Part shown: positions 3,582-58,193 of the stretch, in pieces | How the letters are laid out: the number at the start of each line of letters is the position of its first letter | How positions within the stretch are numbered: the first letter of the stretch is position 1 | Source of the DNA: a bacterium | Lineage (GTDB): Bacteria > Campylobacterota > Campylobacteria > Campylobacterales > Sulfurimonadaceae | Direction: 5' to 3' | DNA: 64,000 nt | Assembly: GCA_018825665.1 (NCBI GenBank) | Contig: JAHJEG010000037.1 | Span: 1-64,000, forward strand | Made by a program: the position numbers and the translations under genes | Notes under the pieces: generated by a model | Database searches by the model: none | What the model was told of the DNA's origin: nothing | Seen by the model: the letters and a program-made list of their open reading frames with translations, nothing else

Positions 3582-4919
3582 ATGAAGATAGCTAGATTTA
3601 GTAGAATTGGATTTATTTTGGCGGCGGCAGGCAGTGCTGTAGGACTTGGAAACATTTGGAAATTTCCCTATATTGCGGGTGAGTTTGGTGGCGGAGCTTT
3701 TGTTCTTGTATACCTGTTTACGGTACTTCTTATAGGGTTTTCCATTATGATAGCAGAAATGCTCATTGGCTATCTCGGCAGAAAAGATACCGTCACCTCA
3801 TTTGAAGAACTCGCACCAAAAAACAAAGGCATGTGGAAATACGGCGGTTTTCAAGGCTTGGCCGGTTTGTTTATCATGATATTTTATTCGGTAGTTATCG
3901 GCTGGATATTCAACTATATCGTTACCTCTATCTTTTCGCTTCCTGCTACCGTAGAAGAAGCGGAGATAACTTTTACGACCATGCTTCATACCGATTTTAT
4001 CACACAGCTCTTTTACCATACTGTTGCATTTATATGGATAACCTATGTAGTGAATAAGGGGATAAAAGGAGGTATAGAAAAATTAAACATGATTTTAATG
4101 CCTACTCTTATGCTGATCCTTTTAGGAATGTTTATTTATGCTACAACGCTTGGAGCCTTTTCTCAGGCATTGGAATTTATGTTCTCTCCGGATTGGTCTA
4201 AAATAGACTCAAACGCTTTTGTAACGGCCGTAGGTCATGCATTTTTCACACTCTCTCTTGGTATGGGTGCTATCATGACCTATTCCGCCTCGCTTGAGAA
4301 ACACTCCAATATTGTTAAAAATGCTTTTTGGGTTGTATTTTTAGATACTTCTATTGCTATTGTGGCGGGTCTGATGCTTTTTACGTTTTTATATCAGTAC
4401 GGCGGGGGTCCGGCAAAAGGTCCGGGTCTTGTTTTTATCTCTCTTCCGGCTGCATTTTACGAGATGGGCATAATCGGAAATATCTTTGCCGTACTGTTTT
4501 TTATAGCCTTGGCCTTTGCAGGTCTTACATCTTCCGTTTCTTTGGTTGAGCCTATGGTTCAATACTTTATCGACAGATTCAAGTGGAGCAGACTCAAATC
4601 TTCCCTAAGCATGGGATTGTTCTTTTATCTCGTTGGTATCATTGCCCTGCTTTCAAATATTGAAGGCTTTCAAGAGGCTCTCACATGGGGAGACAAAAGC
4701 TTTTTTGACTGGGTTGACTATGTTACGGCTGCCATAATGCTTCCTGCGGGCGGATTGGTTATGGCTCTTTTTATCGGTTTTGCCGTAGAAAAGTCAAGAG
4801 TTGAAGCCGTGATGAGACCTCAGCTTCGCGGTGCCTTTGAAATCTGGTATTTCAGCCTCAGATACATCACTCCCGTTGCTATGTTTATCGTCATGTTAAG
4901 CCTCATGGGAGCCATATAG
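3582..4919 (+). CDS. Sodium-dependent transporter, NSS/SNF family
   Basis: AAAGSAVGLGNIWKFPYIAGEFGGGAF signature of neurotransmitter:sodium symporters. Confidence 0.95.
   Translation: MKIARFSRIGFILAAAGSAVGLGNIWKFPYIAGEFGGGAFVLVYLFTVLLIGFSIMIAEMLIGYLGRKDTVTSFEELAPKNKGMWKYGGFQGLAGLFIMIFYSVVIGWIFNYIVTSIFSLPATVEEAEITFTTMLHTDFITQLFYHTVAFIWITYVVNKGIKGGIEKLNMILMPTLMLILLGMFIYATTLGAFSQALEFMFSPDWSKIDSNAFVTAVGHAFFTLSLGMGAIMTYSASLEKHSNIVKNAFWVVFLDTSIAIVAGLMLFTFLYQYGGGPAKGPGLVFISLPAAFYEMGIIGNIFAVLFFIALAFAGLTSSVSLVEPMVQYFIDRFKWSRLKSSLSMGLFFYLVGIIALLSNIEGFQEALTWGDKSFFDWVDYVTAAIMLPAGGLVMALFIGFAVEKSRVEAVMRPQLRGAFEIWYFSLRYITPVAMFIVMLSLMGAI
3828..3838 (+). repeat. GGCATGTGGAA motif copy 1
   Basis: Exact; encodes GMW in the NSS transporter. 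Confidence 0.9.
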
Positions 4920-7478: not shown

Positions 7479-8870
7479 TTATAGTTTACATATACCCTCT
7501 ATTAAGTCATCCGGTGTAAGAGAAAAATCAGCGCCTTCAAAATCCAGAGCCAGTCTGGCATGTGCAAGCGAAGCATTTTTTGCGGCCTCAAGAGGTTCGT
7601 ATCCCTGAGCCAGAAGTGCCCCAATCAGGCCGCTGAGAACATCTCCGCTTCCCCCTTTTGCAAGGACAGACGTGCCATGGGGGTTAATAAAGAATTCATC
7701 CCCTTTTGCAATAATCACGTTCGCACCTTTTAAAAGAAGGGTGGCATGTGGAAATCTCAAACAAAACTCCTCCACATATCTAAAACGGTTCTTTTGCAAA
7801 GTATCCACGCTGATATTTGCTATCTCCGTTTGTTTCAAAAGAGCAGTGAATTCTTTGGCATGTGGAGTCAGGACTATATTTTTTCTCTCCAGTATTTCTC
7901 TGAGTATCGGCATGTGGAAAATATCTGCATCTGCGACAAGAGGAAGCCAGTTATCCAAAAAAGTCTCCAGTTCCAAATCGCTAAACTCATCGCCCAAACC
8001 CATTCCCAAGGCCAGTGCCGTCGTATTTGCCGGAAGCTCATGCGAGTACATTATGCTTTGAGGGATTATCTCATCTTCAAATCCCACCAGAGTGACCAGA
8101 CCTGCTCCAAATCTAAGCGCGGTTTTTGCACTCATGATACTTGCTCCGGCTTTGTTTCCACATGCCAGGGCAAGATGTCCGAAACTGCCTTTATGAGAGT
8201 TCTTTGCCCTTCTGTATGGCAATTTCAAATCATCCATATCAAGCAGATTCCAGTCGCTCTTTGTCTCATATATCTCTCTGGATATTCCAAGGTCAATCAC
8301 TTTTATCTCACCGACAAAATCTTTCGCCTCATCCAAAAACATACTTTTCTTTAAAGCGCCCATGGTAAGCGAGACATCTGCGACAAAGGTTTCTCCGGCG
8401 CATTCGCCGTTTGCCCGTAAGCCGGAGGGAACATCACAGGCGATCTTGAAAGCCTTGAGCGCATTCATCTTTTTCATGATTGCTGAAAGCTCCTCACTAA
8501 ACTCACCCTCAAAACCTGTACCCACAAAAGCATCCACCAAGACATCGCAATCGACAAGTTCCCGGCATGTGGAAACTCCGAGGGCTTTATTGCGCCTCTC
8601 CTGCAAAAGCGCCATCTTTGACTTGGGCTCTTTGATATGAAAGATACAGACATCATAATCGCCATGCAGCAGTCGTGCAGCAGCAAGGCCGTCTGCACCG
8701 TTGTTTGCACTTCCACATGCCAGGATTATTTTGGAACCAAAAGCAAAATGATCGCGTATATACCCGGCTATGCCGTTTGCCGCATGCTCCATCAGGATAT
8801 CCTCGCTCAGGGCAAATTCCCCGTAGCATCTCTCATCAAGTGAAGAAACCTCGTCAAAGAGTTTTTGCAT
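7479..8870 (-). CDS. nnrD: Bifunctional NAD(P)H-hydrate repair enzyme (YjeF_N epimerase + ADP-dependent dehydratase)
   Basis: ILACGSANNGADGLAAARLL; KGSFGHLALACGNKAGASIM; GTSVLAKGGSGDVLSGLIGALLAQG. Confidence 0.93.
   Translation of the reverse strand: MQKLFDEVSSLDERCYGEFALSEDILMEHAANGIAGYIRDHFAFGSKIILACGSANNGADGLAAARLLHGDYDVCIFHIKEPKSKMALLQERRNKALGVSTCRELVDCDVLVDAFVGTGFEGEFSEELSAIMKKMNALKAFKIACDVPSGLRANGECAGETFVADVSLTMGALKKSMFLDEAKDFVGEIKVIDLGISREIYETKSDWNLLDMDDLKLPYRRAKNSHKGSFGHLALACGNKAGASIMSAKTALRFGAGLVTLVGFEDEIIPQSIMYSHELPANTTALALGMGLGDEFSDLELETFLDNWLPLVADADIFHMPILREILERKNIVLTPHAKEFTALLKQTEIANISVDTLQKNRFRYVEEFCLRFPHATLLLKGANVIIAKGDEFFINPHGTSVLAKGGSGDVLSGLIGALLAQGYEPLEAAKNASLAHARLALDFEGADFSLTPDDLIEGICKL
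7743..7753 (+). repeat. GGCATGTGGAA motif copy 2
   Basis: Exact; antisense in nnrD (FPHA). Confidence 0.9.
7909..7919 (+). repeat. GGCATGTGGAA motif copy 3
   Basis: Exact; nnrD (FHMP). Confidence 0.9.
8156..8166 (-). repeat. GGCATGTGGAA motif copy 4
   Basis: Exact; nnrD (ACG). Confidence 0.9.
8564..8574 (+). repeat. GGCATGTGGAA motif copy 5
   Basis: Exact; nnrD (STC). Confidence 0.9.
8711..8721 (-). repeat. GGCATGTGGAA motif copy 6
   Basis: Exact; nnrD (ACG). Confidence 0.9.
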
Positions 8871-9671: not shown

Positions 9672-10226
9672 TTAGCTTTTAAGCACCTGGGCAATTGCCT
9701 CGGGCATAATCTCAAACTCCAGTTCTTTTATCTTCCGGCTGAAACTCTCAAGGCTCTCATCCCCCGAGCGGATAAAGCTCTTTTGCAAAATGATCTCTCC
9801 TGCATCCAGTTCGCTGTTGACCCAGTGGACACTTACTCCGCATTCGGTATCCCCGCTTGAAAAACTCTGTTCTATCGCTTTTGCGCCCTTGTATTTCGGA
9901 AGCAGGGAGGGATGAAGATTTATCGCTTTTATATTCGAGGTGAACACCTCGCTCAGTATCCTCATAAATCCGCTAAGGACCACCAGGTCAGGCTCATAGG
10001 AGCGAATCAGCCCCACAAGTTTTGCATCAAAAGCCTCTCTGGAGTCAAAACCCGTATGGCACAGAACCTCTGTTCGTATCCCGAGGCTGCTTAATTTTTC
10101 TATCCCTTTGGCATCTGCCCTGTTTGTTATTCCACATGCCACGATACACTCTTTTTCATGCAGATTCTCTACAATATTTTGGGCATTAAACCCCTCTCCG
10201 CTAAATAATAATACTATTTTTTTCAT
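9672..10226 (-). CDS. purN: Phosphoribosylglycinamide formyltransferase
   Basis: LVVLSGFMRILSEVF...INLHPSLLPKYKGAKAIEQ. Confidence 0.94.
   Translation of the reverse strand: MKKIVLLFSGEGFNAQNIVENLHEKECIVACGITNRADAKGIEKLSSLGIRTEVLCHTGFDSREAFDAKLVGLIRSYEPDLVVLSGFMRILSEVFTSNIKAINLHPSLLPKYKGAKAIEQSFSSGDTECGVSVHWVNSELDAGEIILQKSFIRSGDESLESFSRKIKELEFEIMPEAIAQVLKS
10130..10140 (-). repeat. GGCATGTGGAA motif copy 7
   Basis: Exact; purN (ACG). Confidence 0.9.
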
Positions 10227-16681: not shown

Positions 16682-17203
16682 CTACTTTTCATTGAGCACC
16701 TTGACCTTAAACAAAACATCCTCTTCATCCTTGAAATCAATATGGATCAGATAAAGCTCTTTGTTCTCGTTGGAAGATTTATACACCCTAAAACTCTCCA
16801 CATCTCCAAGATAATCAACAACCGCTTCAGTGTCTCGGCTTAAGGGGTATTCCTTAAACTCTTTGGATGACTCGAGTCTGTAAAGTTTGGATTCTTTTAC
16901 GATGTATGCGAGATAGGGGTTGTATCGTTTATGGATAGAATTTGTACTTTGAAAAAACACGACATCCTCTTTTTTACCTTGGTTCATCGATTTTACGGAG
17001 TTGGCTAGAGCAAGTGAAAAATCTAAAAAAATCACCCGTTTTTTTATCTGCTGCGTTTGAATCTTCCTAAGCTCATCTTTATACACCGCATTTGATTTAT
17101 TAAGCTGTGCATACCCCTCATACAAAAATATCATCATTATGGAGAGTATGCTTATCGATATAAGCAGTTCAAGCAAGGTAAACCCTCTTTTAGCTCTCAT
17201 CAT
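16682..17203 (-). CDS. Type II secretion minor pseudopilin (GspJ-like)
   Basis: RGFTLLELLISISILSIMMIFLY prepilin signal; operon position. Confidence 0.75.
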   Translation of the reverse strand: MMRAKRGFTLLELLISISILSIMMIFLYEGYAQLNKSNAVYKDELRKIQTQQIKKRVIFLDFSLALANSVKSMNQGKKEDVVFFQSTNSIHKRYNPYLAYIVKESKLYRLESSKEFKEYPLSRDTEAVVDYLGDVESFRVYKSSNENKELYLIHIDFKDEEDVLFKVKVLNEK

Positions 17204-17652
17204 TGGAATCTCAGTCTCATAAGACCCGAAGTGGAGTCTCCTGTTTTTAAAACAGTCTTGCCCACTTCAAAGATAAGATTCGAATCAGAAGCCGACATAT
17301 CCCCTTCTGATAAATCGGCATCGCTTTGTTCAAATTCTCTTAAATCTATTGTGTTTAATTCTTGATACACAAGTTCTACTTTTATGTTTTTAAGCTCTCT
17401 TCTGAGTTCATCCTCAACCTTGAAGTCACTGACAAGTTCATCCATATCCACACTCTTTTTCTCAAATCCGTATTCTGCATTTGAGATAAAAAACGAAGTA
17501 TACTGATTCATTTTGAGCTGTTTTTTCAAGCCGGAAAAGATATGGGTACTGTTTCCCTGCATCTCTAAAAGAGCAAGGATTACCACAGATATTATCACGA
17601 CCGATATCATTACCTCAATCAGAGTGAAAGCATCTCTGGATTTTTTAGTCAT
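17200..17652 (-). CDS. Type II secretion minor pseudopilin (GspI-like)
   Basis: RDAFTLIEVMISVVIISVVILALL prepilin signal. Confidence 0.75.
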   Translation of the reverse strand: MTKKSRDAFTLIEVMISVVIISVVILALLEMQGNSTHIFSGLKKQLKMNQYTSFFISNAEYGFEKKSVDMDELVSDFKVEDELRRELKNIKVELVYQELNTIDLREFEQSDADLSEGDMSASDSNLIFEVGKTVLKTGDSTSGLMRLRFQ

Positions 17653-19162
17653 TCCCTAGACCGATACGAATAGCTTCATCCAATGATGTTTCGCCATTGA
17701 GCAGCATGATTAGAAGTTGCGTGGAGATTGTTTTGAGTCCGTCTTTTTCAAGTTCTGTTTTTATAGAATGCTCATCCGTCGTGGTTTTTAGCAGATCCCT
17801 GACCTTGTCATTCATAACCAAAAGCTCCCCTATGGAACGGCGACCGGCATAACCGCTGTAATTACAGGCCTTGCATCCGCATGATTTATAGATTTTGGCA
17901 TCTTTTGGTATCTTGTAGTCGTCCGCGTATTCCTGAGCGACCGCATCTTCTTCTTTACACTTGTCACACAAAATACGCACAAGTCTTTGGGCCAAAATTC
18001 CCAAGAGCGAGGAGGAGATTAAAAACGGTTCTATTTTCATATCGGCAAGTCTTGAGATTGTAGCCGCTGCCGAGTTTGTGTGCAGGGTTGAGAACACAAG
18101 GTGTCCCGTGAGCGCTGCACGAACAGCTATCGCCGCCGTTTCTTCATCACGAATCTCCCCAATCATAATGACATCTGGATCTTGTCGTAAAATAGAGCGA
18201 AGTGCTGCCGCAAAGGTAAGCCCCACTTTTTCGTTTACCTGAATCTGGGAGATATTATCTGACTTATACTCCACTGGGTCTTCCACTGTCAAGAGATTGA
18301 TATTCGGCTGTTCCACCTCACGTAAAAATGAGTGAAGAGATGTGGTTTTACCGCTGCCCGTCGGTCCTGTCACAAGGATGATACCGTGTGATGCACGCAA
18401 AAGCCTTTTAACATCTCCGATAAGTTCGTTGTTGAATCCTAGTTCTGAGATTTGAGGTATCTGGGAACTTTGCATCAAAAGCCTCATAACCACTCTCTCG
18501 CCATAAAAGGTTGGAAGAACCGAAACACGGATATCCAGGGTCTCGCCCGCTATTTTTATCTGTGTTCGCCCATCTTGGGGGATTCTCTTTTCTGAAATAT
18601 CAAGATTGGAAATAACCTTGATACGGCTTACTATAAGATTCACCACTTTTTTTTCAAGGTCTGCATTTTTTATCAGCATACCGTCAATTCTGAACCTTAC
18701 TTCACCGCGCTTTTCCTGAACTTCGATATGAATATCCGAAGCCCGTTTTTTCACGGCCTGATAAAAAAGAGCATTAACAAATTTTATTATCGGAGCAGAT
18801 TCTTCGGATGTCAAGATATCTGATGATGTTCTTAAAAAATCTGTTAAAGAGAGCTCCTCTTCACTTTGCGTCTCAGTTGAGTCTTCTTGCATAGTTTCTA
18901 TGGCTTTGTCTGTTCGAAGCTCCAAAAAACGGTTGTACAGTCTGTCGTAAGAGTCCTCGTCGAGCATATGAAGCGGATATCTGGTATCTAGTTTTGTGTA
19001 AAAGTTACTCGCCTCTACCAGATATCTCTCACACATAAAAGCGCTCACTTGACCCTCTAGTTCACTAAAGAGAAGATAGTTTTTGACGCTGAGCTCGGTT
19101 ACAACATCAGAGGGTTCAAAAACTTCAAGTTTCAGATTATGGAGCGGTTCGAGGCTAAGCAT
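17645..19162 (-). CDS. gspE: Type II secretion ATPase GspE
   Basis: GPTGSGKTTSLHSFLREV; LRSILRQDPDVIMIGEIRDEETAAIAVRAALTGHLVFSTLHTN. Confidence 0.95.
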   Translation of the reverse strand: MLSLEPLHNLKLEVFEPSDVVTELSVKNYLLFSELEGQVSAFMCERYLVEASNFYTKLDTRYPLHMLDEDSYDRLYNRFLELRTDKAIETMQEDSTETQSEEELSLTDFLRTSSDILTSEESAPIIKFVNALFYQAVKKRASDIHIEVQEKRGEVRFRIDGMLIKNADLEKKVVNLIVSRIKVISNLDISEKRIPQDGRTQIKIAGETLDIRVSVLPTFYGERVVMRLLMQSSQIPQISELGFNNELIGDVKRLLRASHGIILVTGPTGSGKTTSLHSFLREVEQPNINLLTVEDPVEYKSDNISQIQVNEKVGLTFAAALRSILRQDPDVIMIGEIRDEETAAIAVRAALTGHLVFSTLHTNSAAATISRLADMKIEPFLISSSLLGILAQRLVRILCDKCKEEDAVAQEYADDYKIPKDAKIYKSCGCKACNYSGYAGRRSIGELLVMNDKVRDLLKTTTDEHSIKTELEKDGLKTISTQLLIMLLNGETSLDEAIRIGLGND

Positions 19163-21069
19163 CAGTATTCCTCTCCTGAACTTTTCACATTGAAAATATT
19201 ATCGCGATTTGGTTCTTGTTTTTGCGCTCCTTCTTGCGATGAAGAACCCTTGATATTTGCATTTTCTTCTATCCTTTCAAACACTTTTTGATTGTATTCG
19301 TTTTGAAGCTGCGTCAATACACCCAAATCTTTTTGCAATAAAGAGAGTTTTTCACTTTTGTCTACCACATAAGGCGTTAAAATAACCACCAGATTATCCT
19401 CTTCATTTTTTATGGAAGTAGAGGAAAAGAGCCATTCGCCAAGCCATGGAATGTCCCCTAAAAACGGGATTTTGCTTTTTGCTTTTATATCGTAAATCTT
19501 AACAAGACCTCCGATGATTATACTCTCGCCATGGCGCAGGATTGCTTGGGTTTTCACCTCTTGTTTTGAAGTAACGGGCTGACCTGTCGCATTATTGCTT
19601 CCGTCATCCGTAACATTTTCCAAGATAGTTTCCACATCCAGAGTCACCTTGTCCGTGGAAGAGACGCGGGGTTTTATTTTGAGCGTTAAACCTACATCTT
19701 CTCTTTTATAGCTGTTTGTGACTCCCGGAACCGTACCTGCAGATACCGACCCCGTGGATACGGAGATAGTTTTACCCACATATATGGAGGATTCTTTGTT
19801 ATTGACACAAAGGATTGACGGGTTTGAGATAGATTTGCTCGCACCGTTCGTCTGCAAAAAGTCCAGTGTGGCTCCAAGAGCAAATCCCGTTTTTGCAACA
19901 GAACCGATATCTCCCAAATATTCTAATACGCTGGCTGAAGCCGTCGCGGTTAAGGCATTGTCCCCAAAGTTTGCACTCATGGCATACAAGCCGGAAGAGG
20001 AGACGTCACCCGCCGCAAATCCATATTTGATACCCAGATTTTCAGCATCATTTTTATTTATCTCTACGATTCTTGCCTGAACATACACCTGATATTTTTC
20101 TTTGTCAAGTTCGTCAAGTATAAGCTTTATCCCTTTGATTACCACAGGCTCACCTATAGCGATTATCGCATTGATCTCTTCACTCGCGGAGACGTTCGGC
20201 TTCATTGCAGGGTCTGCAAAAGTCTGCTTTGAGATGATTTCCGTCAAACTTGCAAGCACCCCTTTTGCATCGGAGTTTTTAAGATGGAATATCTCTACCC
20301 CCTGGCTTATATGTGATTCTACATCCAGTTTTTTTACAAGATCCTGTATTTTTGCGACATTTGCGGCATTCCCGACAACGATAAGTCCGTTCACATTGTC
20401 ATCGAGAATGATTTTGACTGTCTGTGAAGCCACCTTGTCGTTAAAAAGTGATTTTGTGATATCAACCAGACGTATTTGCAGTTTTTTTGCCTCAGCGTTT
20501 ACGATTGGGATCACTTTTACTATCATCTGATTATTTGTGTCTATATCTTTTATAACTTTTTTTATTGTCTCAATATTGCTTGGATAGTCTGTGATTAAAA
20601 GGATATTGCTCTCTTTCATCGTCATAAGCTTTGCGGTTTTGGAGATCAGATATCTTATTTTAGCCGCAACCACGTCTACGTTTTCACCCTTTATCTCTAT
20701 AGACTGCGTAACCATCAAAGAGCCGCTGAGCTTTTGCCCGGGCTTGACCACTTCGGCATTGTTTTTGGCAGCGTCCGTAGAGCGGACAACCTCAAAAATA
20801 GAGCCTTGGCGCATAATGGTAAACCCTTTGGACTCCAAGACGGAGATAAGGATCCCCATAAGCTCATCATCATAGACGGGTGCCGTACTGACGAAGTCTA
20901 CCGTACCCGATATTTTGTGATTTATCAAAATATTTTTATTCGTAATCTTAGATATCAGCTTGATAAAGTCATCTATCTCCAAGTTTGAAAAATTCACATT
21001 CACCTGCTCCCTTGCAGACAAAACCAAAACTAAACTCAGCGTTAAAAATACTATTCTAATTAATCTCAT
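19162..21069 (-). CDS. gspD: Type II secretion secretin GspD
   Basis: N0/N1 repeats and C-terminal VGLTLKIKPRVSSTDKVTLDVETILE...IIIGGLVKI...PFLGDIPWLGEWLFSS. Confidence 0.95.
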   Translation of the reverse strand: MRLIRIVFLTLSLVLVLSAREQVNVNFSNLEIDDFIKLISKITNKNILINHKISGTVDFVSTAPVYDDELMGILISVLESKGFTIMRQGSIFEVVRSTDAAKNNAEVVKPGQKLSGSLMVTQSIEIKGENVDVVAAKIRYLISKTAKLMTMKESNILLITDYPSNIETIKKVIKDIDTNNQMIVKVIPIVNAEAKKLQIRLVDITKSLFNDKVASQTVKIILDDNVNGLIVVGNAANVAKIQDLVKKLDVESHISQGVEIFHLKNSDAKGVLASLTEIISKQTFADPAMKPNVSASEEINAIIAIGEPVVIKGIKLILDELDKEKYQVYVQARIVEINKNDAENLGIKYGFAAGDVSSSGLYAMSANFGDNALTATASASVLEYLGDIGSVAKTGFALGATLDFLQTNGASKSISNPSILCVNNKESSIYVGKTISVSTGSVSAGTVPGVTNSYKREDVGLTLKIKPRVSSTDKVTLDVETILENVTDDGSNNATGQPVTSKQEVKTQAILRHGESIIIGGLVKIYDIKAKSKIPFLGDIPWLGEWLFSSTSIKNEEDNLVVILTPYVVDKSEKLSLLQKDLGVLTQLQNEYNQKVFERIEENANIKGSSSQEGAQKQEPNRDNIFNVKSSGEEY

Positions 21070-23724: not shown

Positions 23725-24622
23725 AGTTCGATCCCTTTTTTGTTTTCATATCGTATTCGAATCCTATTTTTGCACTTTTTTCATCCTGGACAATCTCTAC
23801 AGTCACGTCCAAAAAGCGTTCATCAAATTTGGGATTAAATCTAAGCAATTGCTCTTTTTCCTCATCGCTCAGCCCTATATCCTCAATCGTTTTATAGATT
23901 CCAGAACCGGCGCCCATACTCAGTTCCAAGGCTCTTGCACTGTCACATCCGAGTATCATCTCCCAGACCTCGGCCGTTGCATAGTTCACATCGATTCCGA
24001 GATTTCTGTCACTACTGTAATAAAATAAATTATCATAGTTTATATTTTTAACACTTTTATCATGATAAATTTTCATATAAGAATCGATTATCTCCTCCAT
24101 ATGTCTCCTGGATGCTATGTAATCTCTAAAAAGATAGGGTTTTTCATTAAAGATGTCGCTTCTGTAGCCGTCTTGCCTTACCTTGCCCATACTGTCAAGC
24201 AGCAAATCCACAAAGCTGATATTGACCATATTCCTGTTCAAATACTGCTCCAGGGCAAACTTTCTGCTCTCGTTCACCGTAGCGTTTGCATCCGTAAGAG
24301 AGTTTATATTAAACCTGGACCTTGCGCTCTTTAGCCCAACCATAACCTTAACTCCCGAATATTCGGGGAGCATAAGGGGAAACTGGTTCAAAAATTCGTA
24401 AAAAGCTTCGCTTGAGTCTATGGCATCAAGCTCCTTGGATGTTCTCAAAAGAGTTAAGACATCATCTAAGAGCGTGCTCGTCTGAAGTAAAAAGCTTTCA
24501 TTTTCCACATGCCCGGATGCCTCTTTTACCTGTTTGAGGCCAAGGCCTATGGCAAGAGTGATGGCAATGATAAATAAGACTGTGATAAGCAATGCAATCG
24601 CATCTCTTTTGTTTTTTAACAC
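23708..24622 (-). CDS. GspK-like protein
   Basis: DAIALLITVLFIIAITLAIGLG N-terminus; RSRFNINSL motif. Confidence 0.75.
   Translation of the reverse strand: MLKNKRDAIALLITVLFIIAITLAIGLGLKQVKEASGHVENESFLLQTSTLLDDVLTLLRTSKELDAIDSSEAFYEFLNQFPLMLPEYSGVKVMVGLKSARSRFNINSLTDANATVNESRKFALEQYLNRNMVNISFVDLLLDSMGKVRQDGYRSDIFNEKPYLFRDYIASRRHMEEIIDSYMKIYHDKSVKNINYDNLFYYSSDRNLGIDVNYATAEVWEMILGCDSARALELSMGAGSGIYKTIEDIGLSDEEKEQLLRFNPKFDERFLDVTVEIVQDEKSAKIGFEYDMKTKKGSNFVYDI
24503..24513 (-). repeat. GGCATGTGGAA motif copy 8
   Basis: Exact; gspK-like (HVE). Confidence 0.9.
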
Positions 24623-24626
24623 TTTT

Positions 24627-26365: not shown

Positions 26366-26367
26366 TT

Positions 26368-27031: not shown

Positions 27032-28861
27032 ATGAGAACTTTAAGATATATATTTAAACTGTTGTTTCTTATTTTGGCAGTTGTGGATCTTCATGCCATA
27101 GAGATAGATTCAAAGACATCCGGGATTGATCTTCTCTCCCGCTCAAGCATCTTCATAGATGACACGAACACTCTCTCGCTGGATGAAGTGCGCAGCAGAC
27201 AGTTCACACAATGCGAAAAAGAGATTTTGGGGTTTGGCTTTGTTCCCGATAAAGTTTTGTGGATTCGGTTCACGCTCAAAAATACTACGGACGCCACTCT
27301 GCATAAAGTGCTTCAGTTTGATAATGCCACTACGGAAAACATCCGCTTGTATTACGATGACAAGGTTATAAACGACGGCATGTGGAACATGGACAACACC
27401 CGAACAAGCCTGCATCCGAGCTTTGAGATATCTTTGGAGCCTTATGAAGAAAAAAGCTTTTATATCAAGGCACACTCCAAAATATCCACACTTATCGCCA
27501 AACTTGTTTTATGGGAAAAAGAACCCTTCCTCCAATATGAATACGAAAGAAAAACCTATCTGTTCCTATTTTTTGCAGTGCTTGTCACTCTGTTGCTCTA
27601 CAATCTTATGCTCTATGTTTTTACCAAAGACAGAGCCTACCTCTACTATATTCTCTACCTTGCATCCGTTATATTCTTTCAGTCCAATTATCTTGGGATC
27701 TCTCAGCTGTATCTCTTCTCAAACGAGATAACAGCCATTGTCGCCAAGGCAAGCATGACATACATCTCTTTTTTGATTATAAGTATCCTCCTCTTTACCA
27801 GAGAGTTTTTACATACCTCCAAATTTGAAAAACTTGATTTTGTGCTGAAGGTCTATCTCTACATCACGCCCGTAATCGCGCTTTTGAGTTACGACAATTT
27901 CCTCTTTGACATGAATATCATCCTCGTTTTTATTCCCTTGGGAATGCTTGTCGTATTTACGGGATTTTATGCCTTGTACAAGGGTGTAAAACAGGCGAAA
28001 TTTTATGTACTTGGATGGAGTTTTGTCATCTTCTCGCTTATCTTCATAAACCTTAAGGCTACGGGGCTCTTTGATATCACCAAATATTTTTTGTATATCA
28101 ACGAACTTGCCTTTGTTCTTGAAGCCCTGCTCTTTTCCATCGCACTCGCGCACCGTATAAAGATACTCTCAGAAGAAAAAAGCGAAGCAGACACAAGACT
28201 CATAGAGTTTCAAAAACAAGAGCAGTTAACACTCAAAAGACTTGTAGATGAAAAAACCGCCGATCTGCTGCTGGCACTCAACCAAAAAGAGCTGCTCTAT
28301 AAAGAGTTAAACCACAGAGTAAAGAACAATCTTCAGATGGTTCTCTCCCTGATAAAACTGCAGATTCTTAAAAGCAGTTCGCATCAGACGAAAAACGAAC
28401 TTGAAATCACAAAAAACAGGATAAATTCTATCTCCCATCTCTATGAGACCCTGCATCTCGACACCAAGAGTGAAAATATCAGCACCTATGAATACTGCAA
28501 GAAAATTGCACAAAACCTTGATATCAACCCTGCCGTAAAAATAGATGTCGTATACGATATCAAACATAACCTGAGCATAGACCATCTGGTGTACTGCGGT
28601 CTAATCCTCAACGAACTGATGACCAATGCTATCAAATACGCTTTTACAAACAGCGGTGAGCTGAAAATAGATCTATACAAAATAGGAAGAACCGTTTTTC
28701 TCACAGTGCAGGATAACGGAGCGGGATTTGAACAAAAAGGGAATATCTCTTTGGGACTTGAGATTGTCAGGACCCTGGTAACAAAACAGCTTTTGGGGGA
28801 TATGGTCATTGATTCCAAAGATGGAACTGTAGTAAAAATAAAGTGGGACGAAAATGAATAA
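27032..28861 (+). CDS. 7TMR-DISM sensor histidine kinase (HisKA_2 type)
   Basis: DISM extracellular region, seven hydrophobic segments, YKELNHRVKNNLQMVLSLIKLQ, HATPase LILNELMTNAIKYAF. Confidence 0.92.
   Translation: MRTLRYIFKLLFLILAVVDLHAIEIDSKTSGIDLLSRSSIFIDDTNTLSLDEVRSRQFTQCEKEILGFGFVPDKVLWIRFTLKNTTDATLHKVLQFDNATTENIRLYYDDKVINDGMWNMDNTRTSLHPSFEISLEPYEEKSFYIKAHSKISTLIAKLVLWEKEPFLQYEYERKTYLFLFFAVLVTLLLYNLMLYVFTKDRAYLYYILYLASVIFFQSNYLGISQLYLFSNEITAIVAKASMTYISFLIISILLFTREFLHTSKFEKLDFVLKVYLYITPVIALLSYDNFLFDMNIILVFIPLGMLVVFTGFYALYKGVKQAKFYVLGWSFVIFSLIFINLKATGLFDITKYFLYINELAFVLEALLFSIALAHRIKILSEEKSEADTRLIEFQKQEQLTLKRLVDEKTADLLLALNQKELLYKELNHRVKNNLQMVLSLIKLQILKSSSHQTKNELEITKNRINSISHLYETLHLDTKSENISTYEYCKKIAQNLDINPAVKIDVVYDIKHNLSIDHLVYCGLILNELMTNAIKYAFTNSGELKIDLYKIGRTVFLTVQDNGAGFEQKGNISLGLEIVRTLVTKQLLGDMVIDSKDGTVVKIKWDENE
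27377..27387 (+). repeat. GGCATGTGGAA motif copy 9
   Basis: Exact; histidine kinase (GMW). Confidence 0.9.
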
Positions 28862-30268: not shown

Positions 30269-31945
30269 TTGAAATTTTTACTACTCTTTATACCCATTTT
30301 GCTGACACTTCATGCCCAAAACTTTGATGAGGATACTCTAAAAAAACAGATAGGACGGATGCTTGTTGTAGGTTTCAACGACAAGAGCCTTGATGAAAAT
30401 TCAAGGATTGCCCGAGAGATTCGCAAGTATGAACTCGGAGGGGTAATCTTGTTTGACCGTTTTTACAATGATAAAAACCGCACGAAGAACATCAGTTCCC
30501 CCCAACAGCTCCGGGAACTCACGGCAAAACTGCACTCCTTCTCAAAAAAACCTCTTTTTGTCTGCATAGACCAGGAGGGGGGAAGGGTCGCAAGACTCAA
30601 GCCGCAATACGGTTTTACAAAAATCCCCTCTGCAAAAAAAATATCCCTGATGGAGAGTGCGGATGTTCAAAACATTTATGCGGCTCAGGCAAAAATGCTC
30701 AGACAAAACGGCATCAACTGCAATTTTGCCCCTGTTCTTGATTTGGCACTCAATCCAAAAAACAAGGTGATTGTGGGATTGGAGCGCTCTTTTTCTGAGA
30801 GCTCTTTGCAGGTGCTTAAATATGCCAAAATCCTTATAGAGGCACAAAGAGCCCAGCATGTCATCTCGGTCCTAAAACATTTTCCGGGACACGGCTCCTC
30901 TTTGGGCGACTCGCATCAGGGCTTTGTCGATGTCAGCAAGAGCTGGAACGAAAAGGAGCTTGAACCCTATCAGGAGCTTATAGATTCGCAAGACGCAGAT
31001 ATGATAATGACCGCCCATGTCTTTAACTCCCGTCTTGACAAGACCTATCCCGCCACCCTCTCCTACAAGGTCAACACCGAGCTTTTAAGAAAAAAGATGG
31101 GCTTTAGGGGTGTGGTTATCTCCGATGATTTGCAGATGAAGGCGATCTCAGAACATTTCACCCTCAAAGAGACCCTCACCCTTGCCATCAACTCCGGCGT
31201 GGATATGCTCCTCTTTGGCAATCAGCTTGCATCCCAAAGCGTCGATGTGCTTATCGATATGATCTACTCCCAGGTAAAAAGCAAGAAGATTCCACATGCC
31301 AGGATTCTAGAAGCAAACCGCAGGATTGAGAACCTCCATACCAAAAACTCCATTGTCTCCAGAGCGATAAAGTTTGAAGAAGAGCGTATCGCCATGACAA
31401 AAGAGTATATCAAACAGCATTACGGTCTGAGCGTTGCTGATATCAAGATAAAGCCAAAAATAATCGTTCTTCACTGGACGGCGGTTATGGATTTTGAAAA
31501 GAGTTTTAAAAGACTTTACCCCCAAACGCTCTACAGCGACAGGGCAGACATAGCAAATGCAGGCGCACTGAATGTATCGGCGCATTTTTTGATAAAGCGC
31601 AACGGAGAGATTATCCGGCTTATGCCGAGCGACCATATGGCAAGACATGTGATAGGGCTGAACTATTCAAGCATAGGGATTGAGAATGTAGGGGGAGAGA
31701 ACAATACCGAAGATGATTTGACACCCGCGCAGCTGCAGGCCAATATCGCACTTGTACACTACCTCAAAGCCCAATACCCTGATATACAATACCTCATCGG
31801 CCACCACGAATACACAAAGATGCAGGACACGCCCCTATGGCTGGAAAAGGATGCTTCCTACAGAACCAAAAAAGCCGATCCCGGAGACAGGTTTATGCGT
31901 GAGATCAGAGCTTCGCTTCAGGAGCTTGGATTGAAGAGACCCTGA
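30269..31945 (+). CDS. Exported GH3 beta-N-acetylglucosaminidase (NagZ-like) fused to N-acetylmuramoyl-L-alanine amidase (Amidase_2)
   Basis: Signal peptide; CIDQEGGRVARLKP, KHFPGHGSSLGDSHQG; C-terminal IIVLHWTAV...SAHFLIKRNGEIIRLMPSDHMARHVIG...IGIENVGG...YLIGHHEY. Confidence 0.92.
   Translation: MKFLLLFIPILLTLHAQNFDEDTLKKQIGRMLVVGFNDKSLDENSRIAREIRKYELGGVILFDRFYNDKNRTKNISSPQQLRELTAKLHSFSKKPLFVCIDQEGGRVARLKPQYGFTKIPSAKKISLMESADVQNIYAAQAKMLRQNGINCNFAPVLDLALNPKNKVIVGLERSFSESSLQVLKYAKILIEAQRAQHVISVLKHFPGHGSSLGDSHQGFVDVSKSWNEKELEPYQELIDSQDADMIMTAHVFNSRLDKTYPATLSYKVNTELLRKKMGFRGVVISDDLQMKAISEHFTLKETLTLAINSGVDMLLFGNQLASQSVDVLIDMIYSQVKSKKIPHARILEANRRIENLHTKNSIVSRAIKFEEERIAMTKEYIKQHYGLSVADIKIKPKIIVLHWTAVMDFEKSFKRLYPQTLYSDRADIANAGALNVSAHFLIKRNGEIIRLMPSDHMARHVIGLNYSSIGIENVGGENNTEDDLTPAQLQANIALVHYLKAQYPDIQYLIGHHEYTKMQDTPLWLEKDASYRTKKADPGDRFMREIRASLQELGLKRP
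31290..31300 (-). repeat. GGCATGTGGAA motif copy 10
   Basis: Exact; nagZ-amidase fusion (PHA). Confidence 0.9.
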
Positions 31946-33414: not shown

Positions 33415-34489
33415 ACTTTATATCGGTGTGATGAGCGGTACGAGTCTCGATGGGATTGATATAGCGCTTTGTGAGATAGACGCACTAAGATGCACCCTTG
33501 TCGCATCAAAAGAATACCCTTTTGAGCAGGCACTCAAAAAAGAGATTTTGGCTCTGATAGACACCCCCTCCACGCTCATGCAAATCGGTACTGCAGACAA
33601 AAAACTCGGGCTTATGTTTGCAGATGCCATCAACTCTTTTATACAAACACACAAGATAGTTCCACATGCCATCACCGCCGTGGGACTTCATGCTCAAACA
33701 CTCTGGCACAACCCGGACTCGGAGTTTTCTTTTTCCATGCAGCTGGGCGATGCAAACACCGTATCTGCCAAGACAGGCTTGCAGGTTGTCGCGGATTTTA
33801 GAAGGATGGATATGGCAAACGGCGGTCAGGGCGCTCCTTTTGCTCCCGCTTTTCACCAGTTCGTGTTTGGCTCGCTTGAAGAAAAAACGGCAGTTCTCAA
33901 TATCGGCGGAATGGCAAATATTACGATTTTGGGGGAGGAGCTCAAAGGCTGGGACACGGGTCCGGGCAATGTCCTGATGGATATGTGGATACAAAAGTCC
34001 CAAAACCAGGCCTATGACAAAGAGGGTGCATTCTCGGCATGTGGAACCCTGGACGAAGAGCTCCTAAAAGCCATGCTTGGCGACGAATATTTCCAAAGAC
34101 CTCCCCCAAAAAGTACGGGCAGAGAGTATTTTAATGAGACCTGGCTTGCCAAACATCTGCCTCTCTTTCAGACCATAAAAGATGAGGATATACAAAGAAC
34201 CCTTGCAGAACTCACCGCCTGGAGTATCGCAAACGATGTGAATAAAACCGATACCCGGCTTCTTCTCGTCTGTGGCGGGGGAGCAAAAAACAGCTTTTTG
34301 ATGCAGAGGCTCCAAAAGCTTTGCAGATGCACAATCGCGACAAGCGATGCATACGGTCTCAACAGCGACTTCTTAGAAGCGATGGCTTTTGCCTGGCTTG
34401 CATACAAAAGAGTACATAGAGAAGAAGTGAACCTCAAATCCGTGACAGGTGCTTCAAAAAATTCAATTCTGGGCGGTATATATGGATAA
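33407..34489 (+). CDS. anmK: Anhydro-N-acetylmuramic acid kinase
   Basis: GVMSGTSLDGIDIALCEI; NIGGMANITIL; GWDTGPGNVLMDMW. Confidence 0.95.
   Translation: MSELYIGVMSGTSLDGIDIALCEIDALRCTLVASKEYPFEQALKKEILALIDTPSTLMQIGTADKKLGLMFADAINSFIQTHKIVPHAITAVGLHAQTLWHNPDSEFSFSMQLGDANTVSAKTGLQVVADFRRMDMANGGQGAPFAPAFHQFVFGSLEEKTAVLNIGGMANITILGEELKGWDTGPGNVLMDMWIQKSQNQAYDKEGAFSACGTLDEELLKAMLGDEYFQRPPPKSTGREYFNETWLAKHLPLFQTIKDEDIQRTLAELTAWSIANDVNKTDTRLLLVCGGGAKNSFLMQRLQKLCRCTIATSDAYGLNSDFLEAMAFAWLAYKRVHREEVNLKSVTGASKNSILGGIYG
33660..33670 (-). repeat. GGCATGTGGAA motif copy 11
   Basis: Exact; anmK (PHA). Confidence 0.9.
34036..34046 (+). repeat. GGCATGTGGAA motif copy 12
   Basis: Exact; anmK (ACG). Confidence 0.9.
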
Positions 34490-35420: not shown

Positions 35421-36079
35421 AGGCTATGATCTTATGTGCGGGACGCGGCGAAAGGATGCGCCCCTTGAGCGACACGCTTCCAAAACCCCTCTTGGAAGTG
35501 CGGGGAAAACCGCTGCTTCTTTGGCATGTGGAAAGACTCAGGGCATGTGGATTTAGCGACATCATCATCAACATCGCATATTTGGGGTACAAGATATCCG
35601 AGTATCTGGGTGACGGTTCGAAATACGGGGTGCATATACACTATTCGGATGAGCAAGACAGCGGAGCATTGGAGAGTGCAGGCGGAATCATAAAGGCTCT
35701 TCCTCTACTTGGGGAGGAGCCTTTTTTGGTCGTAAACGGCGACGTGTTTTGTGATTATGATTTTGACCCCTCTTTTGATTTGGGCGACAAACTGGCACAT
35801 CTGATTTTGGTGCCAAATCCTGAACATAATCTTAACGGTGATTTTGGTCTGCAAAACTTTCTTTTGATTAATGAGAATCAAGTAAAATACACTTTTTCCG
35901 GTATAGGCTACTATTCACCCGGGCTCTTTGAGGGTCTTAGGTGTGAAAAACTGCCGCTGGCTCCGATACTCCGAGAAAAGGCAGAAGAAAAAAAGATCTC
36001 TGCCTCTTTATACCTTGGCATGTGGAATGATATCGGAACACCAAAAAGGCTCAAAGAAATAAATATGGATACGCGATGA
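35417..36079 (+). CDS. murU: N-acetylmuramate-1-phosphate uridylyltransferase MurU-like
   Basis: MKAMILCAGRGERMRPLSDTLPKPLLEVRGKPLLLWHVERL; FLVVNGDVFCDYDF. Confidence 0.88.
   Translation: MKAMILCAGRGERMRPLSDTLPKPLLEVRGKPLLLWHVERLRACGFSDIIINIAYLGYKISEYLGDGSKYGVHIHYSDEQDSGALESAGGIIKALPLLGEEPFLVVNGDVFCDYDFDPSFDLGDKLAHLILVPNPEHNLNGDFGLQNFLLINENQVKYTFSGIGYYSPGLFEGLRCEKLPLAPILREKAEEKKISASLYLGMWNDIGTPKRLKEINMDTR
35523..35533 (+). repeat. GGCATGTGGAA motif copy 13
   Basis: Exact; murU (HVE). Confidence 0.9.
36017..36027 (+). repeat. GGCATGTGGAA motif copy 14
   Basis: Exact; murU (GMW). Confidence 0.9.
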
Positions 36080-37058: not shown

Positions 37059-37892
37059 TTAGCTGATAAGAGCCTTGAGCGTGTGCGATGCACGGGGTTT
37101 TAGTATTTTGAAATCCCCATAGGCGTTTGCCGATTCAATGCAGACCATTCCCAAATAGGCGTCCTCTTTCATCCCGCTCATTCTGGAGCATTTTTCTATC
37201 CACGGGTTCCACACCACGACCGAAGAGGAGCCTTCATTTTGTATCTTTATCACTCTGTTCTTGTCTGATAAGAACAGAGCCTCTTTTACATCCTGATAGA
37301 CCCTGTCCACTTCTTCCATAAAGACAACATCCCCTTTTTGCACACATGTTTGCGCGCTTAATGCGTCAAAATAGGGCTTCGCATCCAAACCTTTTACAGC
37401 TGCATCTGAGATATCCGAAACCAAAAAATAACTGTGAAGCGCCTGTGTTATTTTGAATTCCCTCTCATCCGTATTGGTCGTGGTCAGCTCCATGCAAAGA
37501 GTGTCCGATACGCGAATCCTCAACTCCAAATGAAACCTGTAGGGCCACAGTTTGAGGGACTCGGGTGTTTCGTTGAGTTCCAAAACCAGCTGCGTTGTTT
37601 TTGAATCTGTCTCTTGGCTCCTTGCTACTTTCCACATGCCGAGTCTGGCAAAGCCGTGCTGGGGAAGGTCCGGATTGTTCATCCCAAAAGAGGGCCAGCA
37701 GAGGGGAACGCCGCCTCGTATCGCCTTGCCCTTTTCAAAATCGCTTGTCTCGCTGAGCCAGAGGATATCCTCTTCCCCTTTGCGTTTGTATTCAAAGATA
37801 TGCGCACCCTGCAAAGCGATTTTTGCCTGTGAAGCCTCATTGCTTATCTCGATATATTCGAAACCGTTTTCCAATTGTTTATGCTGTATCAT
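37059..37892 (-). CDS. Aldose 1-epimerase / D-hexose-6-phosphate mutarotase family
   Basis: AIRGGVPLCWPSFGMNNPDLPQHGFARLGMWKV. Confidence 0.9.
   Translation of the reverse strand: MIQHKQLENGFEYIEISNEASQAKIALQGAHIFEYKRKGEEDILWLSETSDFEKGKAIRGGVPLCWPSFGMNNPDLPQHGFARLGMWKVARSQETDSKTTQLVLELNETPESLKLWPYRFHLELRIRVSDTLCMELTTTNTDEREFKITQALHSYFLVSDISDAAVKGLDAKPYFDALSAQTCVQKGDVVFMEEVDRVYQDVKEALFLSDKNRVIKIQNEGSSSVVVWNPWIEKCSRMSGMKEDAYLGMVCIESANAYGDFKILKPRASHTLKALIS
37630..37640 (-). repeat. GGCATGTGGAA motif copy 15
   Basis: Exact; mutarotase-like gene (GMW). Confidence 0.9.
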
Positions 37893-43985: not shown

Positions 43986-45119
43986 ATGACCAGGCTTGAC
44001 TACTCCACTCAGTGCATAGAAGAAGATGATATCAAAGGGGTTATGGAGGTTTTAAACAGTCCATTTTTGACACAGGGCAGAAAAGTTGAAGAGTTTGAAA
44101 AAGCTCTATGCGACTACACAGGCGCAAAATATGCCATAACGTTTAATTCTGCGACCTCAGCTCTATCGGGCGCTTACCTGGCATGTGGAATCAGTGAAGG
44201 TGATGAGATAATCACTTCGCCTATCAGTTTTGTGGCAACCTCAAATATGTTTGTAACACTTGGAGCAAGACCTGTCTGGTGTGACGTAAAACTTGATGGC
44301 AACATAGATGAAACACAAATCCAAAGACTTATAACTCCAAAAACAAAAGCAATAGTACCCGTTGACTTTGCAGGCAAACCTGTTGCTATTGAGCTTATAA
44401 ACTCCATTGCCAAACAACACAACCTGCTTGTGATTCAAGACGCTTCACATGCTCTAGGCTCAAGCATGAATGGCAAGAAAATAGGAATATTGGCTGACAT
44501 GACAATATTTAGCTTTCACGCCATAAAACCAATAACGACCAGCGAAGGCGGCGCTGTTCTTACGGACAATGAAGAGTATGCTAAAGAGCTCAGACTCATC
44601 CGTTCTCACGGCATGATAAAAAAAGAGTTGTGGAACTCTGACATGGTACGCATGGGTTATAACTTTAGAATGACCGAGGTGGCTGGTTCACTGGGTGTCA
44701 CACAAATAAAAAAACTTGATACTTTCATAAAAAAAAGAAATGAAATTTCAGCTTATTATGATGAAAGATTTAAAAACGAGAAGCTGTTTTTAACCCAAAA
44801 AATCAGTTCCGGGCAGATCAGTTCAAGACACCTCTACCCCGTCATCTTGGCTCCACAGCTGCACTGTTCAAAAGAAGATATCTTTAAAGAGCTCCAAGAG
44901 CTTGGTCTTGGTGTGCAGGTTCACTATAAACCGATCTATCAAAACAGTTTTTACAAAGAAAAATTTGGAGAGATTTCACTTCCGGTAGCAAACGACTTTT
45001 ACCGTTCAGAAATTTCCATACCATGCCATCAGCAAATGAGTTTAGAAGATGCTGAGTTTGTAGCCGATATTTTTTTGAAAGTTATAAACAAATACAGTTT
45101 TAGAGGGTGCAGTTTTTAA
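43986..45119 (+). CDS. pseC: UDP-4-amino-4,6-dideoxy-N-acetyl-beta-L-altrosamine transaminase
   Basis: DegT family directly after pseB; LTQGRKVEEFEKALCDYTGAKYAITFNSATSAL. Confidence 0.94.
   Translation: MTRLDYSTQCIEEDDIKGVMEVLNSPFLTQGRKVEEFEKALCDYTGAKYAITFNSATSALSGAYLACGISEGDEIITSPISFVATSNMFVTLGARPVWCDVKLDGNIDETQIQRLITPKTKAIVPVDFAGKPVAIELINSIAKQHNLLVIQDASHALGSSMNGKKIGILADMTIFSFHAIKPITTSEGGAVLTDNEEYAKELRLIRSHGMIKKELWNSDMVRMGYNFRMTEVAGSLGVTQIKKLDTFIKKRNEISAYYDERFKNEKLFLTQKISSGQISSRHLYPVILAPQLHCSKEDIFKELQELGLGVQVHYKPIYQNSFYKEKFGEISLPVANDFYRSEISIPCHQQMSLEDAEFVADIFLKVINKYSFRGCSF
44180..44190 (+). repeat. GGCATGTGGAA motif copy 16
   Basis: Exact; pseC (ACG). Confidence 0.9.
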
Positions 45120-53278: not shown

Positions 53279-54198
53279 AAACGATCCTTTTTCGGGCCGA
53301 CTCCTCCTCAGACATTGGAACCGGACATATCATGCGCGATTTGGTTTTGGCATCACAGTTCAAAAAAAAGTTTCCACATGCCGAGATTTTCTTTGCTGCA
53401 CAAGACTTAGACGGCAATATCAACCACAAAATAGTGGATGCGGGATATGAACTTAAAAGAGTAACTTCCAATGCAAAAGAGGAACTTTTAGAGCTTATAA
53501 GAACACGGCATGTGGAAATGCTGGTGATAGACCATTACGGCATCGATTATAACTACGAAAGCTTCCTGAAAAACAATTCAAACATAAAGATTTTCTCTTT
53601 GGATGACACCTATGAAAAACACGATTGCGACATACTTCTCAACCACAACATAAGTGCGGATAAAAAAAGATACAAAGGTTTGGTACCGGAGGGATGTGAA
53701 CTCAGATGCGGAGCAAAATACACGCTTCTAAGAGATGAGTTTAACAAAGAGAAAAAGAAAAAGAAAAAAGCAAATAAAGAAAAAACAATATTCTTAGCCA
53801 TGGGTGGAGCTGACCACAGCAATATAAACATAGAGATATTAAAAGTTTTAAAAGCGTTTAAAAATATAAAAGTCAAGCTTGTAACAACGAGTGCGAACAA
53901 AAATATCAAAGCCCTCAAAGGATACGCACAGAATAAAAAATGGATTACATTGCATATAAACTCAAACTCTATCGCCAAACTTATGAGAAAAAGCGACGTA
54001 GCGCTTATTACACCCAGTGTTACGCTCAACGAAGTCTACTATATGGGTCTTCCCTTTATCGCTATTAAGACAGCCTCAAACCAGAATGAGATATATGAGT
54101 ATTTAAAAAAGAAGAAGTTTTTAACTTTAAGCAGGTTCGACAGACACAAGCTAAAATCAAAACTCAAAACTCTCTTAAAGAAGATACAAAATGCTTGA
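53275..54198 (+). CDS. pseG: UDP-2,4-diacetamido-2,4,6-trideoxy-beta-L-altropyranose hydrolase
   Basis: FRADSSSDIGTGHIMRDLVLASQFK; position after pseF. Confidence 0.93.
   Translation: MKTILFRADSSSDIGTGHIMRDLVLASQFKKKFPHAEIFFAAQDLDGNINHKIVDAGYELKRVTSNAKEELLELIRTRHVEMLVIDHYGIDYNYESFLKNNSNIKIFSLDDTYEKHDCDILLNHNISADKKRYKGLVPEGCELRCGAKYTLLRDEFNKEKKKKKKANKEKTIFLAMGGADHSNINIEILKVLKAFKNIKVKLVTTSANKNIKALKGYAQNKKWITLHINSNSIAKLMRKSDVALITPSVTLNEVYYMGLPFIAIKTASNQNEIYEYLKKKKFLTLSRFDRHKLKSKLKTLLKKIQNA
53372..53382 (-). repeat. GGCATGTGGAA motif copy 17
   Basis: Exact; pseG (PHA). Confidence 0.9.
53507..53517 (+). repeat. GGCATGTGGAA motif copy 18
   Basis: Exact; pseG (HVE). Confidence 0.9.
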
Positions 54199-56839: not shown

Positions 56840-57447
56840 TGGTCAGCATCATAGACTACGGGATGGGAAACTCCGCCTCTGTAAAAAAAGCATTTGATTT
56901 TTTAAATATACCGTGCCGGATAACAAACAAAGCTCAAGACATAAAAACTGCAGACAAGCTTCTTATCCCGGGTGTCGGCTCTTACGGCGATGCGATTCAG
57001 GCTCTTCACGCTCTGGAACTTTTTGAGCTTCTAAAAGAGGAAGTCTTAGTCAACAAAAAACCTATTTTGGGAATATGCCTCGGGATGCAGCTTATGGGAT
57101 GCTCAAGTGCAGAAAGCGAAGGGGTCAGTGGATTCGGGTTTATCGATTCCACATGCCAAAGATTTGACATTGACCTGAAAGTTCCACATGTCGGCTGGAA
57201 CAACGCAAAAATTGTGAATAAGGATTCCCGGCTCTTTAAAAACATACCCGATAACAGTGACTTCTATTTTGTCCACTCTTACCATTTTGGCATCAACACC
57301 AAAGAGAAGAGCACAACTGTAAAATACGGTTATGATTTTGCAAGCTCTTTTGAGAAAGATAATATTTTCGGCGTACAGTTTCACCCTGAAAAAAGCCAAA
57401 AATATGGTCTTGAACTTCTCAAAAATTTCGGTGAACTTCAATGCTAA
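56839..57447 (+). CDS. HisH-type glutamine amidotransferase subunit, accessory to the sugar amidotransferase
   Basis: IDYGMGNSASVKKAFDFL; GICLGMQLMG; GVQFHPEKSQKYGLELLKNF. Confidence 0.93.
   Translation: MVSIIDYGMGNSASVKKAFDFLNIPCRITNKAQDIKTADKLLIPGVGSYGDAIQALHALELFELLKEEVLVNKKPILGICLGMQLMGCSSAESEGVSGFGFIDSTCQRFDIDLKVPHVGWNNAKIVNKDSRLFKNIPDNSDFYFVHSYHFGINTKEKSTTVKYGYDFASSFEKDNIFGVQFHPEKSQKYGLELLKNFGELQC
57147..57157 (-). repeat. GGCATGTGGAA motif copy 19
   Basis: Exact; hisH-like (STC). Confidence 0.9.
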
Positions 57448-58193
57448 AACACAGAATCATACCCTGCGTACTTTTAAAAGACTGGCAGCTTACCAAAAGT
57501 GTCAAGTTTAAAGAATTTCGTACGATCGGGCATCCTAAAGTTACCTCTAAAATATATAACAGAAGAAATGTTGATGAGCTTATCGTCTTGGACATCGATG
57601 CAAGCGGTTCAGACAACAGCATAAACTATAAAACTCTCAGCGACATCGCAAAAGAGTGCTTTATGCCGCTCACACTTGGCGGAGGGATAAAATCACTCCA
57701 AGACATAAACTCCCTTTTGGCTATAGGCGCGGACAAGGTCTCCATCAATACAATAGCGATTAAAAATCCGGATTTTATAAGAGAAGCAAGCAAAAAATTT
57801 GGTTCACAATGCATAGTTGTAAGCATAGATGTCATCGAAGATTCCGGCATGTGGAAAGTTTATAACAAAAACCTTGGCATCTTGGAAGAACCGGAGCTTT
57901 TGGAATGGGCAAAGAGGTGTGAAGAACTGGGTGCAGGCGAGATTCTTCTTACCAGTGTCGACAGAGACGGATGTGAAAGCGGTTATGACACAAAACTCAT
58001 ATCTCTTCTTGCCAAAGAGCTGACTATCCCTATTATCGCCAATGGCGGAGCATCTACGCCCGAAGATGCCGTACAAGCTGTAAAAAGCGGCGCAGATGCG
58101 GTAGCAGCCGCCAGTATTTTCCATTTTACACAATATACTCCCAACAATATCAAAGAAGCTTTGCAAGAGGCAGGCTTTGCTGTCAGGTTATAA
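57441..58193 (+). CDS. HisF-type cyclase paralogue
   Basis: RIIPCVLLKDWQLTKSVKFKEFRTIGHP; PIIANGGASTPEDAVQAVKSGADAVAAASIFHF. Confidence 0.92.
   Translation: MLKHRIIPCVLLKDWQLTKSVKFKEFRTIGHPKVTSKIYNRRNVDELIVLDIDASGSDNSINYKTLSDIAKECFMPLTLGGGIKSLQDINSLLAIGADKVSINTIAIKNPDFIREASKKFGSQCIVVSIDVIEDSGMWKVYNKNLGILEEPELLEWAKRCEELGAGEILLTSVDRDGCESGYDTKLISLLAKELTIPIIANGGASTPEDAVQAVKSGADAVAAASIFHFTQYTPNNIKEALQEAGFAVRL
57846..57856 (+). repeat. GGCATGTGGAA motif copy 20
   Basis: Exact; hisF-like (GMW). Confidence 0.9.

Follow-up and report, generated by a model that had tools for sequence, protein, structure and literature searches.

An 11-letter DNA word concentrated in nnrD and dispersed through Sulfurimonas genomes as a candidate uptake-sequence-like dialect

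The gene nnrD, which encodes a bifunctional NAD(P)H-hydrate epimerase/dehydratase, was explored together with its neighbour, purN, in a 64-kb window of a Sulfurimonas genome. The window is the whole stretch of DNA that was analysed. There are five exact copies of the 11-letter DNA word GGCATGTGGAA within 979 bp of nnrD, and two near-copies are present in addition. An earlier note on this DNA had listed these sites, along with one in purN, and each was found where it had been placed (Table 1). As the note had also claimed, the exact copies lie in both orientations and in four frame contexts, where they encode FPHA, FHMP, LACGN, VSTCR, and LACGS. For this word, the gene is the densest spot in the window, which the note had seen, and also in the 383 kb sampled. 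The window further contains a type II secretion-like cluster. Genes for GspE, GspD, GspC, GspF, GspG, and three further prepilin-like proteins were identified there, for a total of four (pseudo)pilins, and several of the cluster's ORFs have no Pfam or NCBIfam match.

Table 1. Genes, the secretion-like cluster, and sites of the word in the 64-kb window
Feature	Positions	Strand	Remark
nnrD, bifunctional NAD(P)H-hydrate epimerase/dehydratase	7479..8870	-	Pfam YjeF_N 4e-32, Carb_kinase 3e-40
purN, formyltransferase, neighbour of nnrD	9672-10226		1 exact GGCATGTGGAA copy
Type II secretion-like cluster	16682-26802		
GGCATGTGGAA exact copy	3828..3838	+	sequence match
Near-copy GGCATGTGCAA in nnrD	7557..7567	+	position 9 G>C, the variant most often tolerated there in own genome
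GGCATGTGGAA exact copy in nnrD	7743..7753	+	encodes FPHA
Near-copy GGCATGTGGAG in nnrD	7857..7867	+	variant at position 11
GGCATGTGGAA exact copy in nnrD	7909..7919	+	encodes FHMP
GGCATGTGGAA exact copy in nnrD	8156..8166	-	encodes LACGN
GGCATGTGGAA exact copy in nnrD	8564..8574	+	encodes VSTCR; otherwise present in L038 alone
GGCATGTGGAA exact copy in nnrD	8711..8721	-	encodes LACGS; in 8/8 motif-species nnrD genes
GGCATGTGGAA exact copy in purN	10130..10140	-	sequence match
GGCATGTGGAA exact copy, inside type II secretion cluster	24503..24513	-	sequence match
GGCATGTGGAA exact copy	27377..27387	+	sequence match
GGCATGTGGAA exact copy	31290..31300	-	sequence match
GGCATGTGGAA exact copy	33660..33670	-	sequence match
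GGCATGTGGAA exact copy	34036..34046	+	sequence match
GGCATGTGGAA exact copy	35523..35533	+	followed by near-copy GGCATGTGGAT at 35542
GGCATGTGGAA exact copy	36017..36027	+	sequence match
GGCATGTGGAA exact copy	37630..37640	-	sequence match
GGCATGTGGAA exact copy	44180..44190	+	sequence match
GGCATGTGGAA exact copy	53372..53382	-	sequence match
GGCATGTGGAA exact copy	53507..53517	+	sequence match
GGCATGTGGAA exact copy	57147..57157	-	sequence match
GGCATGTGGAA exact copy	57846..57856	+	sequence match

A total of 20 exact copies were found in the window, where dinucleotide shuffles give an expectation of 0.04. The 2.34-Mb genome to which the window belongs contains 539 copies, split 255 to 284 between the strands and thus largely free in orientation, and the reversed word, used as a control, has none. 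The density of GGCATGTGGAA in nnrD is a local peak of this genome-wide phenomenon. When 20 copies are placed at random over 64 kb, at least five fall within 1392 bp in ~1% of cases; for 539 copies over the whole genome, the figure is ~14%. By random placement, the cluster in nnrD is mildly unusual or at most moderately surprising, and at the scale of the genome it falls short of significance.

Three word-rich genomes supplied the 742 kb in which the anatomy of the word was determined. The core, CATGTG (positions 3-8), is near invariant, with 1 one-off variant against 242 exact copies and a chance expectation of 4.25, and positions 1, 9, 10, and 11 at the edges are variable. The word thus has a strict core and tolerant flanks. 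Its extended form is y-GGCATGTGGA-a, and a T or C is favoured before it. No long conserved flanks surround the copies in these 742 kb, and a mobile repeat was rejected for this reason. The copies are dispersed and occupy all six reading frames. In the window's own genome, ~79% are within predicted ORFs and 21% are outside, where 8% of the sequence lies; for genome G102, the values are 47% of copies outside and 12% of the sequence. Close pairs (40 bp or less) number 18, about 4 of any kind being expected, and 15 of the 18 are inverted.

The nnrD orthologues of the eight species that carry the motif possess 5, 4, 4, 3, 4, 7, 1, and 3 copies, compared with about 0.4 expected per gene. Nine different exact positions are used in varying combinations, and the position at residue 51 is occupied in all eight. 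In the nnrD genes of 54 other Sulfurimonas, the homologous 11 nucleotides are mostly 1-5 mismatches away from the word at four of the five sites; at the residue-102 site, which corresponds to the copy at 8564, they are mostly at least 8 mismatches away. Alanine at residue 51 is found in 8/8 motif species and 8/54 of the others (Fisher p=4e-6), and A376 in 6/8 and 11/54 (p=0.004). The earlier note had proposed that orthologues be aligned for motif gain at variable sites, and had named invariant residues at the motif positions as evidence against its reading. At the five sites the encoded residues are not invariant, with changes such as V51A, and the motif species carry the compatible ones, so that the check favours the note on the accumulation of the repeat. 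The copies in nnrD appear to have been gained at conservatively variable sites.

Peptides that are strictly compatible with the word number 0.52 in word-free nnrD orthologues, some of which belong to close relatives where the word may have been present earlier, versus 0.041 per 463 amino acids in other ORFs. This is a ~13x difference. It is based on strict patterns only, and relaxed patterns were left out because they had been shaped by looking at nnrD. Thus, judging from these protein sequences, nnrD is probably a predisposed gene whose density comes from its motif-compatible peptides.

Counts of GGCATGTGGAA differ widely among 136 Sulfurimonas genomes. There are 318-946 copies in 8 genomes, 19-156 in 10, and 0-8 in the rest. 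In the other genera represented among 398 genomes of the class, the word never exceeds 5 copies, which is chance level. The species with intermediate counts (G123, G157, G151, and others) have a ratio of one-off to exact sites of 2-7, versus 0.45-0.75 in the rich genomes. The sites of G123, the only one of these species with a 40-kb sample, retain GCATGTGGA and differ at the edges. Decay after loss of ComEC was considered for the intermediate species and was rejected on the evidence of G123, in which a slightly different dialect fits better. Two relatives within a word-bearing clade, L033 and L039, have few exact copies along with altered sites, and they are possibly losing the word.

Sampled relatives without GGCATGTGGAA often carry another word, such as TACATGTA types, AAACGCAG, CTCACGCA, or AACGCCA. 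The palindrome YTACATGTAR (loci L093-L095, L087-L089, and L202-L203), which is HIP1-like in form, has at least 100 sites in 23 Sulfurimonas genomes and up to 551, with controls at 18 or fewer. AAACGCAGC has at least 100 sites in 18 genomes and up to 1027. No genome has at least 100 sites for two of these three counted words. AAACGCAG(C) is a genome-wide word in other species (L102, L103, L119-L122, L214, and L215). CTCACGCA (L210-L211 and L188-L189) and AACGCCA (L216-L217 and L084-L086) are candidate words from samples of 40-60 kb. The dialects that contain CATG have ACATG in common. One of the sampled genomes, G016 (L102-L103 and L119-L122), also has a longer repeated segment with GTCATTCTGGACTCGATCC-type sequence, which is distinct from its uptake-like word. 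On a tree of nnrD, a single gene that is itself loaded with the word, the words are patchy, and L040, with GGCATGTGG, falls in a well-supported clade apart from other carriers. This placement is a lead towards a possible transfer of a receptor and no proof of one.

ComEC was found in 126 of the 136 Sulfurimonas genomes, including the window's own. Many ComEC-bearing species among the sampled genomes have no detectable word, and G157, which is 99% complete and has 104 copies, has no ComEC match. The window's own genome contains at least 10 prepilin-like genes, none of which is linked to the word. Word-like signals are present in 14 of 19 sampled genomes with a type II secretion system and in 4 of 11 without one. 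A secretin orthologue is absent from the word-rich genomes G006, G084, G086, G095, and G125. The cluster in the window was rejected as an obligate uptake machine because such genomes exist. It also fits poorly as a member of the Campylobacter Cts transformation system, as it is not present wherever the word is maintained. In two related genomes, the orthologue of the type II secretin is interrupted by internal stops (G031:C1:1606931-1608790 and G072:C4:29350-31197).

Sulfurimonas probably has an uptake-sequence-like system of which GGCATGTGGAA is the local dialect, because the features match those of the Neisseriaceae DUS: a short core that is strict, the existence of dialects, coding sites that are permissive, and inverted pairs between genes. 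In such a system, the transformation machinery would have an outer DNA receptor, such as a minor pilin or its equivalent, with a preference for DNA that bears the word, and ComEC would be the inner channel. Word-bearing alleles would enter the cell and be recombined into the chromosome more often than word-free alleles. Through this biased uptake and homologous recombination, the word could be spread and repaired wherever the protein sequence tolerates it. The gene nnrD would be dense because its conserved protein happens to have several peptides (xACGx, FHMP, and FPHA/FPHV) for which one or a few changes suffice to encode the word. Points against the uptake reading are the word-rich genomes that lack the secretin, the 104 copies in G157 with no ComEC match, the many ComEC-bearing species with no word, the palindromic form of YTACATGTAR, and a weak strand preference in the window's own genome. 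A broader reading is more tentative, at somewhat below even chances. Sulfurimonas may possess a family of uptake-sequence dialects of independent origin (at least GGCATGTGGAA, YTACATGTAR, and AAACGCAGC, and probably also CTCACGCA and AACGCCA) that splits this free-living genus into genetic-exchange groups by DNA words, and the patchiness could come from horizontal exchange or switching of the specificity receptor.

The cluster in nnrD could also be due to selection or a recombination hotspot specific to this gene, and the 3-7 copies in seven of the eight motif species count in favour of this. However, several copies are at shared positions, and the genome-wide p for the cluster is about 0.14. 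A locus-specific hotspot is superfluous because nnrD is predisposed by its peptides, and it appears improbable as the cause. The earlier note had read the cluster as motif accumulation through repeated recombination in one locus. The accumulation of an uptake-sequence-like repeat is retained from that reading, and a hotspot in nnrD is not supported, the predisposition of the peptides being simpler.

Explanations for the word itself other than uptake were weighed as well. It could be a HIP1-like or methyltransferase-linked word that marks a solitary methyltransferase or a repair bias, and it might be read through methylation during uptake, as in Campylobacter jejuni, and not by direct sequence recognition. 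YTACATGTAR is a palindrome, as HIP1 is, ACATG is common to the dialects with CATG, and Campylobacter jejuni discriminates DNA by CtsM-methylated sites (PMC8468864). Yet GGCATGTGGAA and AAACGCAGC are non-palindromic, most methyltransferase sites do not resemble an 11-bp word whose edges are tolerant by degrees, and methylated sites do not need enrichment of several hundredfold, so that this origin is unlikely. A nucleoid or regulatory protein could bind the word, which would agree with the intergenic enrichment. The placement of most copies within ORFs and in every frame speaks against this, as does the mutual exclusion of the genome-wide words, and the near-invariant core together with the amino-acid replacements accommodated in nnrD exceeds what a regulator needs. 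A binding site is therefore very unlikely. The chance is slimmer still that the word acts like Chi, in stimulating RecBCD or AddAB, or orients FtsK in chromosome segregation. It is short, dispersed, and abundant in genes, and the window's own genome has a weak strand preference (67/106, p=0.008). The strong leading-strand bias of such words is nevertheless absent from 220 kb of G101 (35/40) and 140 kb of G102 (27/26). In addition, GGCATGTGGAA is longer than a typical Chi, its close pairs are inverted, and unrelated words are swapped from species to species within one genus.

The uptake-like reading can be set beside known systems, such as the DNA-uptake tags of Neisseria and Haemophilus, which the Sulfurimonas words resemble. 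To our knowledge, uptake sequences are well established in just two groups, Neisseriaceae and Pasteurellaceae, which are mostly host-associated. No report of them in Sulfurimonas or Campylobacterota was found in the open-access literature. If true, the reading would add to these two groups an independent third, in which a single environmental genus has several mutually exclusive dialects, and would mean that evolution has arrived at self-recognition through iterated words time and again. It would also provide a system for tracing the co-evolution and switching of words and specificity, and it would predict barriers to gene exchange among the sulfur-oxidising bacteria of vents and redoxclines.

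HIP1 of cyanobacteria is an abundant dispersed palindrome. YTACATGTAR is likewise abundant, dispersed, and palindromic, but GGCATGTGGAA is non-palindromic and is not of the HIP1 type. The DUS of Neisseriaceae has dialects, a strict short core, permissive coding sites, and inverted pairs at terminators (Frye et al., 2013, PMC3630211). GGCATGTGGAA resembles it in being short, non-palindromic, and iterated, with a strict core, dialects in relatives, inverted pairs, and both intragenic and intergenic copies. Unlike the DUS, it belongs to a different phylum, is an unrelated word, and occurs at about 0.2-0.4 copies per kb. The GCCGTCTGAA-type word of the DUS family has a CTG core; GGCATGTGGAA, with its core CATGTG, lacks CTG on either strand. 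The Sulfurimonas dialects also differ in being patchy on the nnrD tree, and YTACATGTAR is palindromic, unlike both the DUS and the USS. Like the USS of Pasteurellaceae, GGCATGTGGAA is genome-wide, dispersed, and mostly coding in several frames, although the word and the lineage are different. For the USS, the candidate receptor, ComN, is itself a prediction (PMC12616744). Campylobacter jejuni is in the same phylum as Sulfurimonas and uses sites methylated by CtsM for self-DNA discrimination (PMC8468864), and Sulfurimonas would likewise discriminate its own DNA at uptake. In Campylobacter jejuni the site is short, methylated, and frequent, whereas in Sulfurimonas it is a long iterated word.
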